A stretch of DNA of 35,503 nucleotides from Deltaproteobacteria bacterium. GTDB lineage: Bacteria; Myxococcota_A; Polyangia; Haliangiales; J016. Below, one piece after another: positions 1,078 through 34,494 of this stretch. The notes beneath the pieces were generated by a model. The model ran no database searches. It was given only the letters and a program-made list of their open reading frames with translations, and was not told the origin of the DNA. The number at the start of each line of letters is the position of its first letter. Positions within the stretch are counted from its first letter, which is position 1. The position numbers were made by a program, and so were the translations under genes. The stretch lies in the NCBI GenBank assembly GCA_003696105.1, contig RFGE01000119.1, positions 1 to 35,503 on the forward strand, written 5' to 3'.

Positions 1078-2544
1078 CTACGGCAGTGGGAACGTCAGGT
1101 TGCGCACCGCGCGTCCGTCGACGCGCTCGACGCGCGCGGCCTGGCTCACGGCGTGGTCGAACAGGAGGTGCACGGTGATGCCGGCCGGGATGGGCGTGCC
1201 GCCGGTCTGCAGTGGCGCGGTGAACTGCCACCGAGTCGTATAGCCCGACGGGCCCGGCAGCCCGGGGGGATCCCACTCGTCGCGCGACAGCGTCACGTTG
1301 CAGTTCGGATTGCCCAGTTCGTTGATCGCGTCGCCCTGCCCGTTGGCTCCGTTGATGTCGAAGCCGAAGAACACGACGCAGTTGCCGCCGGACAGCGACG
1401 TGCCGATGCCGCCGATCGGCTCGTTGAACGTGATCGTCACGACCTGCGTCACGGGATCGCGCTGGGCGCCGATTACCGACACGTCCGCGTCCGTGGACAC
1501 GGTGAAGAACGGCGCCGCGAAGTCGCCGACCGCGAACCGCTCACCGACCGCGGCGACGGCATGGAGCGCCAGGTTGTACTCGTGGCCGAAGTCGAGTGCC
1601 AGCGGCGACAGGTTGATCGTCAAGCTGTCGTCGCGCACCGACAGGGCCGACGTCGGCACGGCGATGCCGACGCCCTGTTCGTCCATTAGCAGTACGTCGA
1701 CGGTCGGCTGGATCGGCAAGTTGAACAGCACGTCGATCTTCCCGGTCGGCTGCACCACCGCGGGGGTGGCGCCCCCCGCACCCGCCAGCTGCGCGATCGT
1801 CGACGCGCGCACGGTCAGCGCGGTCGCGACGTCGCCGTCGAGGACCACATCCGGCGTCGGGTCCAGCGACCGCAGGTTGAACGCGGCGTCGCCTCCGGAA
1901 AACTCGTCGATGCCGTCGCCGTCCGCATCGAGCGGAGGCAAGAACACGAGCAGAGCATCGTTGACGGAGCCGAGCGCGAAGAAGTCCGGCAAGCCGACCA
2001 CGGTCGCATACCCATCGCCATCCGTCTGGACAGCCTGCGCGATCTGGCCCCGCGCGACCGGCGGGCCGCCGGAGAAGTCGACGTACTGCACCTGGAGTTC
2101 CACGCTCATCGGATACCCGCTCACGGGGGCACCGAACTGATCGAGCACGCGGAATCGGAAGTTGCCCGACTTGGGCAGCAGCCCGATCGGCCCGAGCGTG
2201 AGCGTGGCGTTGCCGACCGGATAGTCGCCGGCCGCCGACACGAGCGTGCCGCGAATGAACGCGTCGTTGTAGCCGTCTCCCCCGGTGACGGTGACGATGA
2301 CGTCGCCGGCCGGCACGCCGGTAAACCGGAACGTCCCGGCCGCGTCGGTCGCCTCCGGGTCGAACACACGCCCCCCGGCGAGCAGTGATACGGATACGCC
2401 CTCGAGCGGAGCCCTCGTCTGCGCGTCGACGACGATCCCGCCGACCGATCCCTCCGGGTTGACGTTTCGTACGCTCACGGCGTCCCCGCCGCACGCCGCG
2501 GTACACCATGCTGCCGTTACAACGAGTCGAGTCCTTCGAATCAT
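1078..2544 (-). CDS. Lipoprotein with carboxypeptidase-regulatory-like and Ig-like domains
   Basis: 488 residues, unrecognised specific function. The start at 2544 is chosen because GGAGG lies 6 nt before this ATG and the protein then begins with a lipoprotein signal peptide ending in a lipobox (TAAC, Cys18). Upstream in-frame codons would add about 70 low-quality residues that run into the next gene. After a short linker, the segment GGIVVDAQTRAPLEGVSVSL is typical of a carboxypeptidase regulatory-like / CNA-B type beta-sandwich (about residues 30-110). Residues about 265-370 resemble an SbsA-type bacterial Ig-like domain (LFNLPIQPTVDVLLMDEQG, then a repeat ending TFNEPIGG). It is likely attached to the outer membrane and exposed as a structural or adhesive protein. 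It lies 20 bp downstream of the PEGA/TPR gene and probably shares its transcript. Confidence 0.8.
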   Translation of the reverse strand: MIRRTRLVVTAAWCTAACGGDAVSVRNVNPEGSVGGIVVDAQTRAPLEGVSVSLLAGGRVFDPEATDAAGTFRFTGVPAGDVIVTVTGGDGYNDAFIRGTLVSAAGDYPVGNATLTLGPIGLLPKSGNFRFRVLDQFGAPVSGYPMSVELQVQYVDFSGGPPVARGQIAQAVQTDGDGYATVVGLPDFFALGSVNDALLVFLPPLDADGDGIDEFSGGDAAFNLRSLDPTPDVVLDGDVATALTVRASTIAQLAGAGGATPAVVQPTGKIDVLFNLPIQPTVDVLLMDEQGVGIAVPTSALSVRDDSLTINLSPLALDFGHEYNLALHAVAAVGERFAVGDFAAPFFTVSTDADVSVIGAQRDPVTQVVTITFNEPIGGIGTSLSGGNCVVFFGFDINGANGQGDAINELGNPNCNVTLSRDEWDPPGLPGPSGYTTRWQFTAPLQTGGTPIPAGITVHLLFDHAVSQAARVERVDGRAVRNLTFPLP

Positions 2545-2564
2545 CGCGCCTCCATTGAGTCTGG

Positions 2565-3806
2565 TCACAGCGGTCGCGTTACCCCCAGCACCACGATGCG
2601 CCGCCCCGAGTCGAGCCCGCGCGACCGCGACAGGATGACGGCGACGGTCGTCACCGTCGCCACCCCCGCCGCCGCGCGGACCGCGTACCAGAAGTACTCG
2701 TGGTCCGGGTCCCACACCGCCCACGGCGCGGGTCCCTCGCGCTCCGGCCGGGGTGACCATTGCGCGACCCGGACCACGGCCGCGCCCACGTCCACCGGAT
2801 TCGTCCCGGCGGCGCGGCCAGCCAGCGCTCCGCTGCGCAGGTCGTAGACGTGGGCGGTTACCCGCGTACGGCGTCCGTCCGGCTGCAGCGTCGCGAACAC
2901 GACGGCATCGACGCCGAGCCGCGACCGCAGCGCGCGCATCGCCGCGGGCGCGGTCGATCGGCCGACGCCGTCGCGCACGGCCAACACGGCATCGGGGACC
3001 GCCACCGGCGGCTGCGGTACGGACAGCACGACGTCGGCCGGCGTCGCCGCGTCGACGGTGACCTCCGCCGTCGCGGTCGGTACCCCCGCCGCGACCGCGC
3101 TCACCACGTGCGGACCCGCCGCCAGGTCGTCTACCACGACCGGTGCCCGGCCGCGCTCCTCGCCGTCCACGTAGATGGTCGCGTCCCCGCCGGACACGCG
3201 GACGCGCAGCTGGCCGGGCCCCAGTTCGGCAGCCAGCAGCCCGGCTTCCAGCACGACGTCGGCCATCTGCGGCGGGAACACCTTCGGGTCGTACTCGGTC
3301 TCGGGAGCGAGTGCGAACACGTGCGCGAGGGCCGCCTTGGCACCGGGGTCGTCCCCGTTGAGGAACCGCGCGATGGCGAGCTGGCGGTAGGCGGCGACGA
3401 GCCGGTGCGGGCCGCCGTCGCGCAGCGCGAGGTCCGGCAAGTTGTCGCGGTATGCGGCGATCGCCCGCTCGAGCGACGCGATCGCGGCGTCGAGGTCGAG
3501 GTCGGCGACCTGATCCCGGGCGGCGCGCAATGCGGCGTCGCCCTCGGCGAGGCGCACGTCGGGCGCCGGCGCGCCGGTCGGCCGCTCCGGTGTCAGCACC
3601 GCCGTCGTCCCGTCGCCGCGAATGCCGCGGGCCAGCGCGTCCTCGATCTGGCGGCGGCGGCCCTCGGGCACGCCGGGCGCCGGCAACACCACCACGTACA
3701 TCCGCCGCGGCGCGGTCCCGCGCCGCGCGGCCCGCGCAGGCGGGGCGAGCCCGCCAAGCAGCGCGGTCGCCAACGCAACCGGCACCAGCGATCGCCCGGC
3801 GTTCAC
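2565..3806 (-). CDS. Secreted TPR/PEGA-domain protein with C-terminal membrane segment
   Basis: 413 residues starting with GTG. The N-terminus is a signal peptide ending near APPARA|A. Residues about 75-180 are helical with TPR-like spacing (LDAAIASLERAIAAYRDNLPDL). Residues about 200-255 form a PEGA-type beta domain (ATIYVDGEERGRAPVVVDDL, then GPHVV). A further alpha/beta segment follows at about 285-335. A membrane helix is predicted near residues 365-385, leaving a short basic tail. PEGA proteins are envelope proteins that often sit beside TPR and surface-layer functions; the exact role here is unknown. The start has no Shine-Dalgarno sequence but has TACAAT exactly 6 nt upstream, suggesting a leaderless transcript. 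The Ig-like lipoprotein follows 20 bp downstream. Confidence 0.8.
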   Translation of the reverse strand: MNAGRSLVPVALATALLGGLAPPARAARRGTAPRRMYVVVLPAPGVPEGRRRQIEDALARGIRGDGTTAVLTPERPTGAPAPDVRLAEGDAALRAARDQVADLDLDAAIASLERAIAAYRDNLPDLALRDGGPHRLVAAYRQLAIARFLNGDDPGAKAALAHVFALAPETEYDPKVFPPQMADVVLEAGLLAAELGPGQLRVRVSGGDATIYVDGEERGRAPVVVDDLAAGPHVVSAVAAGVPTATAEVTVDAATPADVVLSVPQPPVAVPDAVLAVRDGVGRSTAPAAMRALRSRLGVDAVVFATLQPDGRRTRVTAHVYDLRSGALAGRAAGTNPVDVGAAVVRVAQWSPRPEREGPAPWAVWDPDHEYFWYAVRAAAGVATVTTVAVILSRSRGLDSGRRIVVLGVTRPL

Positions 3807-25869: not shown

Positions 25870-26796
25870 CTACAGGTCGAGCAGGCTGTCCGACCGGCGC
25901 TTCTTGACCCGCGGGCGGCTCAGCTCGATGGAGATCGTCGTGTCCCCGCGCACGGTGCGCGTCCGCGACCAGGTGCGAAACCCGCGCGCCCTGGCGACGA
26001 TGCGCACCTTGCGCGGCCCGGACAGCGACACGCGGTAGTCGGCGCCGGTCACCGGCTCGCCGTCCACGGTAATGGTTGCCTCCGCATCGGCTGGCGTCAC
26101 GCGGAAGGTGAGCGTCGCCGTCCGCGCGTGCGGTGCGGGCGGAGCCGCCTCGCGATCCGGCGATCGCTCGCCGCCGGCCTCGCCGCCCACGGCGCCCTCG
26201 CCGCCCCCCGCGCCCTCGCCGCCCGCGGCACCCTCGCCGCCCGCGCCCTCGCCGCCCGCGCCCTCGCCGCCCGCCACGCCCACGCCGGCGCCCGCCGCGC
26301 CCTCGCCGCCGCCCGCCGCGCCCTCGCCGCCCGTCGCGCCCCCGCCGGCGTCTGCGGCGGTCCAGGCCGGCCGACCGGCATCCCGCGCGCCCGGAAGAGC
26401 CGCCGCCGGCGCGCCCGGCGCCGCGGTCCCGCCCGCGGCCGCATCGGCGTGCGACGCAAGTGCGACGGCCGGGCGGCGTCCACGGTCGCCGGTCGCGTCG
26501 CCACCGTCGCGGCCCCCGGCGATGGACAGGCCGACGAGCACGCCCAGCGCGAGCCCCGAACCGATCGCGATCGGCAGGTGGGGAACCGACCGGCGCGCCG
26601 GAAGGCGCGGGATCGCCTCGGTCGGCAACATCGCCGCCGGATCCGGCGCGTTCGCCGGCACCGCACCACCGCCGGCGCGCGCCGCGACCGACACCGGCTC
26701 CGCCGCGGGAGGGCGCGCCGATTGTTGTGGATACACCGGATAGGCCGGCGCCGGCGGCTGGCTGCCGCCTCCCGCCGGCTGTTTCGGATCGGCCAC
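25870..26796 (-). CDS. Membrane protein with Gly-rich spacer and PEGA-like domain
   Basis: 308 residues starting with GTG. A Pro/Ala-rich cytoplasmic N-terminus (about 1-72) is followed by one membrane helix (LPIAIGSGLALGVLVGLSIA, about 73-93), then an Ala/Gly-rich periplasmic stretch with repeated GGEGA units (about 150-205). The C-terminal beta domain (about 220-295: TLTFRVTPADAEATITVDGE, then VRIVARARGFRTW) is PEGA-like. The protein ends with a basic tail (RPRVKKRRSDSLLDL). Function unknown; it is probably an envelope-spanning partner of the PEGA/TPR protein 12 bp upstream, with which it is cotranscribed. No serine/threonine kinase domain is present, although similar Pro-rich/TM/PEGA arrangements follow kinases in myxobacteria. 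Confidence 0.8.
   Translation of the reverse strand: MADPKQPAGGGSQPPAPAYPVYPQQSARPPAAEPVSVAARAGGGAVPANAPDPAAMLPTEAIPRLPARRSVPHLPIAIGSGLALGVLVGLSIAGGRDGGDATGDRGRRPAVALASHADAAAGGTAAPGAPAAALPGARDAGRPAWTAADAGGGATGGEGAAGGGEGAAGAGVGVAGGEGAGGEGAGGEGAAGGEGAGGGEGAVGGEAGGERSPDREAAPPAPHARTATLTFRVTPADAEATITVDGEPVTGADYRVSLSGPRKVRIVARARGFRTWSRTRTVRGDTTISIELSRPRVKKRRSDSLLDL
26170..26345. repeat. Low-complexity repeat encoding GGEGA units
   Basis: Variants of CCCTCGCCGCCCGCG recur through this span in frame with the membrane protein on the minus strand. It is a flexible spacer with no other signal. Confidence 0.7.
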
Positions 26797-30861: not shown

Positions 30862-31764
30862 ATGCCCGCCACCGCAGCCCGCTCCACGTCTCCGTCCGTT
30901 GGTCCCGACGACACCGGGTTCATCGCCAGCCGCGACGGTACCGCGCTGTACGTCGAATGGTTTGACGCGGCCACCGACGCCGCGCCCGGTCTCGCCATCG
31001 TGTTGCACGGCTACGCCGAACACTGCGGGCGCTACCACGAGGTCGCGCGGGTGCTCGCCGACCTCGGCATGCCGACGCTCACCTTCGACTTCCGCGGCCA
31101 CGGCAAGTCCGACGGCGCGCGCGGACACGTCGACCACTTCCGCGAATACCTCGACGACGTCGACGCCGCCCTGCGCGAGCTCGATCGGCGCGCCGGCGAC
31201 ACGAGCCTTCCGGTGTTGATGCTCGGCCACAGCAACGGCGGACTCGTCGCGCTCCGCCTGCTGGCCGATCCGACCCGAGAGCCGAACCGGGTGCGCGCCG
31301 TCGTGCTGTCGTCGCCGTTCCTCGGCTTGGCGGCGAAACTGCCGCTGTGGAAGCGCCAGCTCGCGGTGGTGTCGGGCCGGTACGCGCCGCGCCTGTCGAT
31401 GCCCAACGAGATCCAGATCGACGATCTCACCCACGACCCGGACAAACTCGCGGCGCGCCGCGCGGACACGCTGTGCAACGACAACGCGACGGCCGGGTGG
31501 TTCACCGCGGCGTTGCGCGCGCAACGATACGTGTACGACAACGCGGTGCGGATCGAGGTGCCGACGCTGTGGGTCGTCGCCGGCGGCGACCGGCTGGCCG
31601 ATCCGGCGGCGACGCGCGCCGTGCACGCGCGCCTGCGCGCGCCGTCGGTGTACCGCGAATATCCGGGCTGGCACCACGAAGTGCTCAACGAAGTCGACCG
31701 ACAGCGCGTGTTCGACGAGATCCGCGCGTTCGCGAAGCAACACTTTCCCGTGAAAAACCAATGA
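30862..31764 (+). CDS. Alpha/beta hydrolase, monoacylglycerol lipase type
   Basis: 300 residues of the serine-aminopeptidase S33 / lysophospholipase group. The oxyanion HG and neighbouring region read VLHGYAEHCGRYHEVA, typical of monoacylglycerol lipases. The nucleophile elbow is GHSNGG (Ser124), the acid is Asp243 in AGGDRLADP and the base is His272 in WHHEVLNE, so the triad is complete. The FDFRGHGKSDG segment is also standard. No signal peptide is evident, so it is probably cytoplasmic and cleaves monoacylglycerols or lysophospholipids; the exact substrate cannot be read from sequence. There is no Shine-Dalgarno sequence; TAGCAT (30850-30855) ends 6 nt before the ATG and may be a leaderless -10. 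It is divergent from the TPR lipoprotein gene. Confidence 0.9.
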   Translation: MPATAARSTSPSVGPDDTGFIASRDGTALYVEWFDAATDAAPGLAIVLHGYAEHCGRYHEVARVLADLGMPTLTFDFRGHGKSDGARGHVDHFREYLDDVDAALRELDRRAGDTSLPVLMLGHSNGGLVALRLLADPTREPNRVRAVVLSSPFLGLAAKLPLWKRQLAVVSGRYAPRLSMPNEIQIDDLTHDPDKLAARRADTLCNDNATAGWFTAALRAQRYVYDNAVRIEVPTLWVVAGGDRLADPAATRAVHARLRAPSVYREYPGWHHEVLNEVDRQRVFDEIRAFAKQHFPVKNQ

Positions 31765-31781
31765 GTTGACGCGCTGCGCGT

Positions 31782-31810
31782 TTGCGCGTGTCGGCGGCGG
31801 CCCCTATACT
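31782..31810 (+). promoter_or_regulatory. Sigma-70 promoter of the amidotransferase-like gene
   Basis: TATACT (31805-31810, 5 of 6) lies 17 bp after TTGCGC (31782-31787, 3 of 6). The predicted start near 31817 gives an approximately 100-nt leader before the ATG at 31919, unusual in a window where most leaders are absent. I see no known riboswitch in that leader. Confidence 0.5.
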
Positions 31811-31918
31811 TCGATCCATCGGCCGCGCCCCCGGCGGTCCTGTTCTTTTCGACCGGAAGAGCCCTGCCCCGCGCTGCGGACGGATGGTCACGGTCGGCGG
31901 GGATCGGTGGAGACGTCT

Positions 31919-32695
31919 ATGTATCGACTGTACGGAAGCATGTGCAACCAGCCCAAGCGCCTGCGCGAGGTGCTCGCGCCGGTGCGCGATCTGCTCGTGT
32001 CCGAGGGGCCGGTTGCAAGTTGGGGCCTCGGCTACGCCCACGGCGGCGAGGTATTGCTTCGCCGCCACCCGCGCCCGACGGATCGCGTCGACTTCTACGA
32101 CGTCGTCGAGTCGGTCGCGAGCGACTACATCGTGTTGTACGCATCGTCCGACGCCACGTACAAGGGCAACGACAACACGCAGCCGTTCCGCTACAAGAAC
32201 TGGCTGTACGCGCAGGCCGGCGAGGTGGATGCGTTCGACGCGATCAAACCCGCGCTGGTCGACCACATTCCCGGGTTCATCGCCCGCAACATCCACGGCA
32301 AGACGCCGGCCGAGCACGTGTTCCACGTGTTTTTGGCGTTCTTGCACGACGCCGGCGTCCTCGGCGACATCAACCTGCCGCCCGAGCACGCGCGGCGTGC
32401 CCTGCGCGACGCGCTCGCGCTCGTGTACAACCTCATCGTCCAGGCCGGCGGAACCCGGGGCCCCGGCAACGCCATCGTGACGAACACGCGCACCATGCTC
32501 GCCGTCCGCGTCGACGACCCGCTGTACGTTCGACGGTTCCGCAAGTCGGACCGGAAAGAGGCGCACGACCTCAAGGCGGTGCTGATCACCAGCGGTGACA
32601 CCGCGCCAGGCGAGGGATTCGAAGAGGTCCCGCCGCGGTCGGTCATCGCCGTCTCGCGCGACCTGCAGATCGACATCGTCGCCCTCGACGCATAA
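31919..32695 (+). CDS. Catalytically degenerate class-II glutamine amidotransferase homologue
   Basis: 258 residues. GGAG 7 nt before the ATG fixes the start. The order of motifs follows YafJ/EgtC-type class-II amidotransferases (Ntn hydrolases): MYRLYG at the N-terminus, WGLGY (about 35-39), NTQPFRYKNWLYAQAGEV (86-103) and IHGKTPAEHVFHVFLAFL (125-142), which matches the usual G-x-TDSE-x2-F helix. The catalytic N-terminal Cys2 is Tyr; the usual AHxR is replaced by LYAS; NTHPF is NTQPF; and the oxyanion HNG is QAG. The protein therefore should not hydrolyse glutamine. It has no membrane segment and is likely cytoplasmic. It may bind a ligand or partner as a pseudoenzyme. The VWA gene follows 113 bp downstream. 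Confidence 0.75.
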   Translation: MYRLYGSMCNQPKRLREVLAPVRDLLVSEGPVASWGLGYAHGGEVLLRRHPRPTDRVDFYDVVESVASDYIVLYASSDATYKGNDNTQPFRYKNWLYAQAGEVDAFDAIKPALVDHIPGFIARNIHGKTPAEHVFHVFLAFLHDAGVLGDINLPPEHARRALRDALALVYNLIVQAGGTRGPGNAIVTNTRTMLAVRVDDPLYVRRFRKSDRKEAHDLKAVLITSGDTAPGEGFEEVPPRSVIAVSRDLQIDIVALDA

Positions 32696-32751
32696 CGGCG
32701 CGCGCTGCGGGGCGGCCGGCGCCGCGCGGAGCGGGCTGCCCCGGCGCCCTG

Positions 32752-32765
32752 CGCAACCGGTTGCG
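32752..32765. promoter_or_regulatory. 14-bp perfect palindrome, LacI-family-like operator
   Basis: CGCAACCGGTTGCG is a perfect palindrome with a central CG, like the PurR/LacI-family operator plan CGCAAACGTTTGCG. It lies 43 bp before the VWA ATG in otherwise plain intergenic sequence. No LacI-family gene is in the window, so the binding protein is unknown. Confidence 0.35.
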
Positions 32766-32808
32766 GCGCGCGGCAGATCGTCACGGCGTGCGGTGCGTTC
32801 GAACCGCC

Positions 32809-34173
32809 ATGCGCGATGCACGTACTACCGCCGCCCTGCTGTCTGCTGCCGTCGCCGTCGCCATAGCGGCCACCTGGCTCACGCCTGCCGTCCGCGGAGC
32901 CCCGCGAGACGCCAGCGGCCCGCTGGCCGTGCGCGCGGCGCTCGGGTCGACGCGCGTCGCGGTCGGCGACGGCGAGGCGCACATGGTCGTGACCGTGCGC
33001 GCGCCCGAGCGAGCCGAGCGCCGACGGCCGCCGCTGCACCTGGCGATCGTCATCGACCGCAGCGGCTCGATGGCCGGCGACAAACTCGCACAGGCCAAAC
33101 GGGCTGCGCGCCAGCTCGTCGAGCGCCTCGACGAGCGCGACCGCGTGGCGGTGGTCGCGTACGGCTCGCAACCCGCGCTCCTCACTCCGGCCGAGCCGGC
33201 GACGCCGCGCCACGTCGCCGCGGCGCTGGCGGCGATCGACCGGTTGGTCGACGATGGGGGCACGAACCTGTCCGGCGGGCTCGTCACGGGTCGAGACGAG
33301 CTGTTGCCGTGGCGCAGCGCGACCGCGGTATCGCGCGTCGTACTCATCAGCGACGGGCTGGCCAACGAGGGGATCACCGCGCCCGACGAGTTGGCGCAGC
33401 TCGCGCGCTCCACCGCCGAGCGCGGCGTGTCGATCACGACCGTGGGCGTCGGCCTCGACTTCGACGAGCAGACGATGACCGCGATCGCCGTCGCGGGCGC
33501 CGGCCATTACTACTTCGCCGAGCACGCCGACGCACTCGCGGACATCTTCGACGCCGAGCTGGCGCGCGTCGGCGAAACGGTCGCGACCGACGTACGCGTC
33601 GCGATCACCCCCGCGCCCGGCGTCGACGTCGTGGACGCGTATGGCTACGACATCGCCCGCGACGGCCGCACGGCCCGAATCGCGATCGCCGACGTGCACG
33701 CGGGAGAGACCCGCAAGGTCGTGGTGCGCCTTCGCGTACGCGCGGACCGCCCCGGCCACGTCGACGTCGCCGCCGTTCGCGTCGCGTACCGGGCGGTCAG
33801 CGACGGCCACAGCCGCACGGCGGATGCCAGCGCGACCGCGATCGCGACCGCGGACCCGCGCGACATCCTCGACCACGCCGACCGCGACGCGATGCTTCTC
33901 ATCGAGCGCGCGCGCACGGCCGCGGCACTGCGCGACGCGACCGACCGCTACTCGCGCGGCGACCGCGAGGGCGCGCTCGACGTGTTGCGCGCGCGTAAGG
34001 CCGAGGTCAAACAAATCGCCAAATCGCTCGCGTTCAAGGAACTCGACAAAGATGTTGCTGCTGCAACCGATGAGGCGGCCGCGGAGTTTTCGCGCGGGTC
34101 GGACCGGTTTGGCGCCAGCGGTGCGCGCGCCAAGAAGCGGATCCGCAAGCGCGCCTACGACCTCACCTATTGA
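32809..34173 (+). CDS. Von Willebrand factor A-domain protein
   Basis: 454 residues. The N-terminus (about 10-30) is a signal peptide or membrane anchor ending near VRGA. The VWA domain spans about 78-250 with a complete metal-ion site: DRSGSM (Asp83, Ser85, Ser87), a downstream Thr in GGTNLSGG, and Asp in LISDGLANEG. A beta-rich segment (about 260-355) follows, as in the VIT/VWA and YfbK-type proteins, then a helical C-terminus (about 370-450) rich in Lys and Glu. Periplasmic VWA proteins bind partners through the metal site; the partner here is not evident. No clear promoter or Shine-Dalgarno sequence was found. It may be read through from the amidotransferase-like gene. Confidence 0.85.
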   Translation: MRDARTTAALLSAAVAVAIAATWLTPAVRGAPRDASGPLAVRAALGSTRVAVGDGEAHMVVTVRAPERAERRRPPLHLAIVIDRSGSMAGDKLAQAKRAARQLVERLDERDRVAVVAYGSQPALLTPAEPATPRHVAAALAAIDRLVDDGGTNLSGGLVTGRDELLPWRSATAVSRVVLISDGLANEGITAPDELAQLARSTAERGVSITTVGVGLDFDEQTMTAIAVAGAGHYYFAEHADALADIFDAELARVGETVATDVRVAITPAPGVDVVDAYGYDIARDGRTARIAIADVHAGETRKVVVRLRVRADRPGHVDVAAVRVAYRAVSDGHSRTADASATAIATADPRDILDHADRDAMLLIERARTAAALRDATDRYSRGDREGALDVLRARKAEVKQIAKSLAFKELDKDVAAATDEAAAEFSRGSDRFGASGARAKKRIRKRAYDLTY

Positions 34174-34494
34174 GCGGGTTCGTGGCAGCACGACGCGCCC
34201 GACCGCCTTCCCGACGCACCGGCGGATCCGACGCCCGTCCACAGGCGCTGTGCAGATCCACCCGCTCCATCCGTCCGGGTCGGTCGCCGCGGCCGACCCG
34301 GTCCCTCGTGACCGTCCCCGCGCCCCCGCCGGGCGATCGCCGGGCGCGAACCGCACGACGAACCGCCGCTCGCCCGCCGGTCGGCGGACCGGTCGTGCCG
34401 CCTGCCCGGCGACGCCCTGCCGGCGCGCACGCGATCGACAACCGTTCGAGAACACACGACCGACGCATGTTCACCGATAGCACTAACTTTCGAC
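34174..34494. other. Intergenic region with one 9-bp hairpin
   Basis: No gene seen. 34275-34283 (CCGGGTCGG) pairs perfectly with 34293-34301 across a 9-nt loop, about 100 nt after the VWA stop; without a T tract it is only a weak terminator candidate. Near the right end GACGCATGT (34462-34470) resembles an inverted half of the repeats in the tetR promoter. Confidence 0.4.

Follow-up and report, generated by a model that had tools for sequence, protein, structure and literature searches.

The question raised by this locus is whether a gene can keep the fold of a class II glutamine amidotransferase (GATase) after losing the residues that carry out glutamine hydrolysis, and what its product may then do. 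The gene lies on the plus strand at positions 31919 to 32695 of the window, by which we mean the whole stretch of 35,503 nucleotides that was analyzed. A sequence-only reading had proposed that it encodes a pseudoenzyme. This proposal was supported by the fold, by nucleophile-less homologues in many genomes, by a tree and by purifying selection in relatives. The reading that we favor, with a probability of about two in three, is that the product is a selected, non-hydrolytic protein that would act in binding or as a scaffold.

An intact gene with normal codon use

The frame runs from an ATG at 31919 to a TAA at 32693 to 32695 without a break and encodes 258 amino acids; its assignment as the coding sequence of a GATase-fold pseudoenzyme draws on the open frame, an AlphaFold2 (AF2) model, fold matches and codon use. 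A Shine-Dalgarno-like GGAG is located 6 nt 5' of the ATG (31909 to 31912, plus strand). The third-position GC of the gene is 0.90, and its CAI-like score of 0.70 falls within the range of six neighboring genes (0.66 to 0.76), compared with 0.18 to 0.52 for other frames of the same stretch. The intact frame, the ribosome site and the normal codons of the sequence-only reading were thereby confirmed. Its suggestion of an own promoter was not supported, as a scan of positions 31600 to 32900 with a simple sigma-70 consensus, a weak test for a myxobacterial host, returned no promoter match. A 754-codon open frame lies antisense to the gene and to the downstream VWA gene (32191 to 34455, minus strand); it is a by-product of high GC and no gene candidate.

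The class II GATase fold is retained

The AF2 model, computed from a 73-sequence alignment, was confident over the whole length of the protein (pLDDT 96.3, pTM 0.93). A Foldseek search of the PDB with this model gave 38 matches at an E value of ≤0.001, including EgtC, SPO2029 (3mdn), the YafJ-like Pseudomonas protein 1te5, GlmS and PurF, with moderate TM-scores to the solved structures (about 0.57 to 0.77 for the stand-alone matches). On the evidence of the model and these matches, the window protein has the alpha-beta-beta-alpha glutaminase fold. The structure prediction and the comparison with EgtC and YafJ-like proteins thus upheld the claim that the fold is kept, and the counter-finding that had been named in advance, a match to a different fold, did not materialize. 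A different fold was ruled out, all 38 of the matches being GATase domains.

Searches with a single sequence were nearly blind, and profiles were therefore required. The window protein on its own found no match in the PDB and no Pfam family at an E value of 0.001, with only a sub-threshold hit to GATase_6, and its best NCBIfam match, EgtC TIGR03442 (E value of 1.2e-11), scored 44.4 bits against a cut-off of 218.65. The profile of the 73 sequences, when compared with the PDB, matched SPO2029 3mdn (7.9e-15), 1te5 (3.1e-12) and EgtC (3e-8). Family models tend to call the members glutamine amidotransferases, with 56 of the 73 sequences of the clade alignment matching Pfam GATase_4 (PF13230), yet the nucleophile is absent clade-wide.

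The active site of the window protein

Ntn catalysis requires the nucleophile to be residue 1 of the mature chain. Where the nucleophile Cys2 of class II GATases is expected, the window protein has Tyr (TAT, 31922 to 31924), and removal of Met1 by Met aminopeptidase would be hindered by Tyr2 or Lys2. The alignment showed that residues 73 to 76, LYAS, replace AHxR with the loss of Arg76 (32135 to 32146); that residues 86 to 90, NTQPF, replace NTHPF with the loss of His88 (32174 to 32188); and that residues 99 to 101, QAG, replace HNG with the loss of Asn100 (32213 to 32221). These four motif changes are as the sequence-only reading had written them, the Gly of HNG being retained. A fifth change, absent from that reading, was found in the TDSE motif, where Pro130 (32306 to 32308) replaces the Asp that contacts the alpha-amino group of glutamine in class II GATases. 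Hence, in place of the N-terminal Cys there is Tyr2, in place of the glutamine-binding Arg and Asp there are Ser76 and Pro130, and the oxyanion-hole Asn-Gly has become Ala100-Gly101, with the Asn gone and the Gly retained. Judged from these residues, the window protein very probably lacks glutaminase activity. A sequencing error converting TGT to TAT at codon 2 need not be invoked, as Cys2 was found in no relative of the clade.

Distribution of the family

The window's genome (rated 98% complete) contains a single copy, and a profile search of it revealed no canonical paralogue of the subfamily. A match was found in 86 of 95 genomes from the family, order and class to which the window's genome belongs, although part of these matches are canonical Cys2 paralogues, as are most of those in one family (f10); the remaining nine genomes had no match. 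Across the phylum, 161 of 284 genomes drawn had a match, canonical ones included. The signature N[TA][HQP]P[FY]R[FY][RK]xW, which was built from the Cys-less clade itself and is uninformative about where looser relatives occur, was searched for in 84,980 species genomes and gave 165 stretches, 160 of them encoding relatives. Among the 80 signature matches listed, nearly all were titled Myxococcota or the old Deltaproteobacteria, Sorangium cellulosum included, with a few oddly labeled metagenome-assembled genomes.

Several loci stood apart. On a contig labeled Planctomycetaceae (L146, positions 1800 to 3449), a homologue about 90% identical to that of Sorangium was accompanied by about 270 further residues; this contig is probably misbinned or chimeric. 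Four homologues from other Myxococcota classes (L189, L204, L201 and L206) are very diverged, with starts such as MLRFCGVFAS and nearly all catalytic motifs gone, and possibly represent a separate erosion series. One member of the family of the window's genome (G001) lacks the gene; it is 1.6 Mb in size and rated 98% complete, compared with 5.3 Mb for the other member, which may reflect genome reduction or a mis-estimate.

Loss of the nucleophile and stepwise erosion

An alignment was assembled from 36 rows with Cys2 and 155 Myxococcota homologues without it. The complete set R76-H88-H99-N100-G101-D130-E132 was present in 34 of the 36 Cys2 rows. In the 155 Cys-less rows, residue 2 was Ser (45 rows), Ala (44), Thr (11) or Gly (8), Met in 23 rows with a shorter N terminus in the alignment, and one of several other residues, including Arg, Pro, Glu, Asn and Tyr, in the remainder. 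A tree was computed that also contained E. coli YafJ, EgtC-like proteins and paralogues with Cys2; a branch with an SH-aLRT support of 99 separated all of its 91 Cys-less rows from the rest, in a sample that had started with the window protein and is weighted toward this clade. Rooting the tree on YafJ, whose branch is long, lowered the support for the clade to 63 to 81, leaving the exact root uncertain. Since, to our knowledge, all class II GATases use Cys as their nucleophile, one ancient loss of Cys2 would be the simplest reading and fits the tree.

The remainder of the active site was lost unevenly. In 7 of the 155 rows only the nucleophile was lost; Arg76 and Asp130 were both kept in 76 rows and both gone in 56. 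Within the window's order, one family (f2, L031) retains all except Cys2, another (f3, L022 and L027) retains Arg76 and Asp130, and Arg76, His88, Asn100 and Asp130 are missing from all 29 rows of the two families, f1 and f4, that make up the window's lineage. Drawn from these residue patterns, the order of events in the window's lineage appears to be that catalysis was lost first and the ligand pocket afterwards. The sequence-only reading had asked whether homologues share the same substitutions; this was true clade-wide for the loss of Cys2, whereas the remaining losses are characteristic of the window's lineage and of certain other lineages. A single family offers a graded series from loss of the nucleophile alone to loss of the whole active site, so that the sequence of steps by which a pseudoenzyme arises can be put to the test, as can the question of whether ligand binding persists once catalysis is lost.

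Newly conserved residues and purifying selection

The Cys-less clade has conserved residues that are absent from the canonical group, namely, Leu46 (95%), Pro51 (97%), Pro118 (97%) and His136 (78%), as well as the signature PFRxRxW, in which Arg91 is conserved at 97% and Arg93 at 85%. The window protein carries the features of the clade, with Tyr2, Pro51, P89-F90-R91-Y92-K93-N94-W95 (residues 90 to 95 at 32186 to 32203), Pro118 and the corresponding position in the tree; the second Arg of the signature is Lys93 in this protein. Its lineage additionally has an invariant Cys9-Asn10 (31943 to 31948; 29 of 29 rows), Cys9 being found in only 45 of the 155 rows of the wider clade. The clade-specific residues and the invariant Cys9-Asn10 are signs of new constraint, not drift.

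Selection was measured in relatives of the window protein, whose own nearest homologue (53% identity, dN of 0.38, dS of 0.85) is too distant for a sharp dN/dS. In 55 of 56 close pairs of relatives, dN/dS was about 0.04 to 0.36; the exceptional pair, at 0.61, is doubtful, as the frames run past the gene. No internal stops were seen among the homologues listed from the related-genome and phylum searches.

Genomic context

The gene order around the locus is RecO, a small gene, an HTH gene and a TPR gene, all on the minus strand, followed on the plus strand by an alpha/beta hydrolase, the pseudoenzyme, a VWA-domain protein and a TetR gene. The hydrolase (Hydrolase_4, E value of 4.5e-61) occupies 30862 to 31764, 154 nt upstream of the pseudoenzyme gene, and in 16 other loci a relative of it precedes the homologue in the same orientation, at gaps of 42 to 371 nt. 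The VWA gene (32761 to 34173, plus strand) has counterparts directly downstream in two further loci (L092 and L097). In 24 Polyangiaceae loci (L154, L148, L133 and others), a conserved lipoprotein gene follows or overlaps that of the homologue (−53 to +106 nt). A Pfam scan of the L148 copy of this lipoprotein gave no match; an AF2 model (pLDDT 84) showed likeness to the NTF2-like/ketosteroid-isomerase fold, with a best E value of 6.8e-05 and low TM-scores. Neighbors vary between orders and, because the hydrolase and lipoprotein contexts differ, the context does not name a function. Gene fusions were considered as a clue to function and left unused, as two loci (L151 and L167) appear to read into the lipoprotein region and L146 looks chimeric or misbinned. 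Elsewhere in the window, an open frame at 25870 to 26796 (minus strand) has a long Gly-Glu-Ala-rich tract (GGEGAGGEGA...) before a PEGA-like C terminus.

Alternative explanations

The family may still be catalytic with its nucleophile replaced: the substitute would be Ser2 or Thr2 for part of the members and, for the window's lineage, the invariant Cys9 or a different residue in a new site. Ser and Thr can serve as nucleophiles in other Ntn hydrolases, and the presence of one or the other at position 2 in several members means that inactivity is not certain for the whole family. Six of the Ser2 rows keep Arg76, His88, Asn100, Gly101 and Asp130. However, position 2 is not maintained as a nucleophile, given the 44 Ala2 and 8 Gly2 rows, one of which (L210) has its other catalytic residues intact. 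Furthermore, the window protein has Tyr2 in a lineage that also lacks Arg76, His88, Asn100 and Asp130, and Cys9 is not N-terminal; in the AF2 model, strand 1 spans residues 2 to 9 and Cys9 lies at its distal end. We consider continued catalysis improbable. A misplaced start codon, with the mature protein beginning at a processed Cys, would be a different route to an active enzyme, and the frame upstream of the ATG is indeed open for 55 codons. This upstream frame contains no MCR-like motif, though, and residue 2 opens the first strand of the fold in the AF2 model. In 70 family members an in-frame stop precedes the same start by no more than 15 codons, in several of them directly, and a hidden upstream Cys is therefore not a family feature. 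The upstream start that the sequence-only reading had named as evidence against itself failed on these stops, and its probability is close to nil.

A role as subunit or regulator of a neighbor, either the hydrolase (in the window's order and some others) or the lipoprotein (in Polyangiaceae), would account for the recurrence of each beside the gene in 16 and 24 loci, respectively. Against this, the two contexts differ, the spacing of the hydrolase gene shows neither overlap nor tight coupling, and the lipoprotein would be exported, while the pseudoenzyme starts with its first strand and has no visible signal peptide. A neighbor as partner is thus unlikely, if slightly less so than a replaced nucleophile. 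The progressive erosion of catalytic residues, the strong divergence of distant members and the nine related genomes without a match are what might be expected of a decaying gene heading for loss and open by chance. Yet the matches listed have no internal stop, related genomes mostly contain a match, which is canonical in some cases, dN/dS is low, invariant and clade-specific residues are present, codon use is normal and the AF2 model is confident along the whole length. Decay is very improbable, and the claim that this is not a decaying pseudogene held up on the open frames and dN/dS of relatives and on codon use.

Proposed role

Returning to the non-hydrolytic binding or scaffold protein, we suggest that the gene product is cytosolic and stands alone, belongs to the EgtC/YafJ branch of the class II GATases and has lost glutamine hydrolysis. 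For members with Arg76 and Asp130, the probable ligand would be glutamine or a gamma-glutamyl compound, bound but not cleaved. In the window's lineage the glutamine pocket is gone, and for this reason the most likely role there is that of a scaffold or regulator, with another protein or a different ligand as its binding partner; such binding may involve the newly conserved Pro51, PFRxRxW, Pro118, His136 and Cys9-Asn10. A more far-reaching and tentative proposal, to which we give clearly less than even odds, is that a phylum-level family passed from glutaminase to binding protein by one ancient loss of Cys2, that glutamine or a gamma-glutamyl metabolite is sensed but not cleaved by those members whose pocket is intact, and that the window's lineage rebuilt the site around Cys9-Asn10 and PFRxRxW.

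Comparison with known systems

Pseudoenzymes with a class II fold have precedent. The N-terminal domain of beta-lactam synthetase is a class II GATase domain without nucleophile or glutaminase activity, and it sits in a larger asparagine-synthetase-like enzyme; in contrast, members of the window family are stand-alone, single-domain proteins. A literature search that covered few subscription papers found no description of the family or of stand-alone class II pseudoenzymes, such that a stand-alone, lineage-wide family is without a counterpart in the literature searched.

The best fold match of the window protein (4zfl, E value of 1.2e-11) is EgtC, the ergothioneine-biosynthesis amidohydrolase (PDB 4zfj/4zfk/4zfl; TIGR03442). 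Both are stand-alone class II GATase folds of about 230 to 260 amino acids, but EgtC has Cys2 where the window protein, at 16 to 18% identity, has Tyr2. EgtC is an Ntn hydrolase that takes the glutamyl residue off its substrate (PMC9103826). Neither egtB nor egtD was found among the immediate neighbors of the window gene, which are hydrolase, VWA, TetR, TPR, HTH, RecO and PEGA proteins.

The YafJ-type and SPO2029-type GATases (1te5, 3mdn; PF13230 GATase_4) share the fold and are the best PDB profile matches, but their canonical members retain the Cys, Arg, His, Asn and Asp of which the window protein retains none. The Myxococcota paralogues that begin with MCRLFGFRS (L073 to L086) belong to the same subfamily and occur beside the Cys-less protein in several genomes. 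These canonical paralogues form a separate group in the tree, and the full R, H, H, N, G, D and E set stands in nearly all of the Cys2 rows (34/36).
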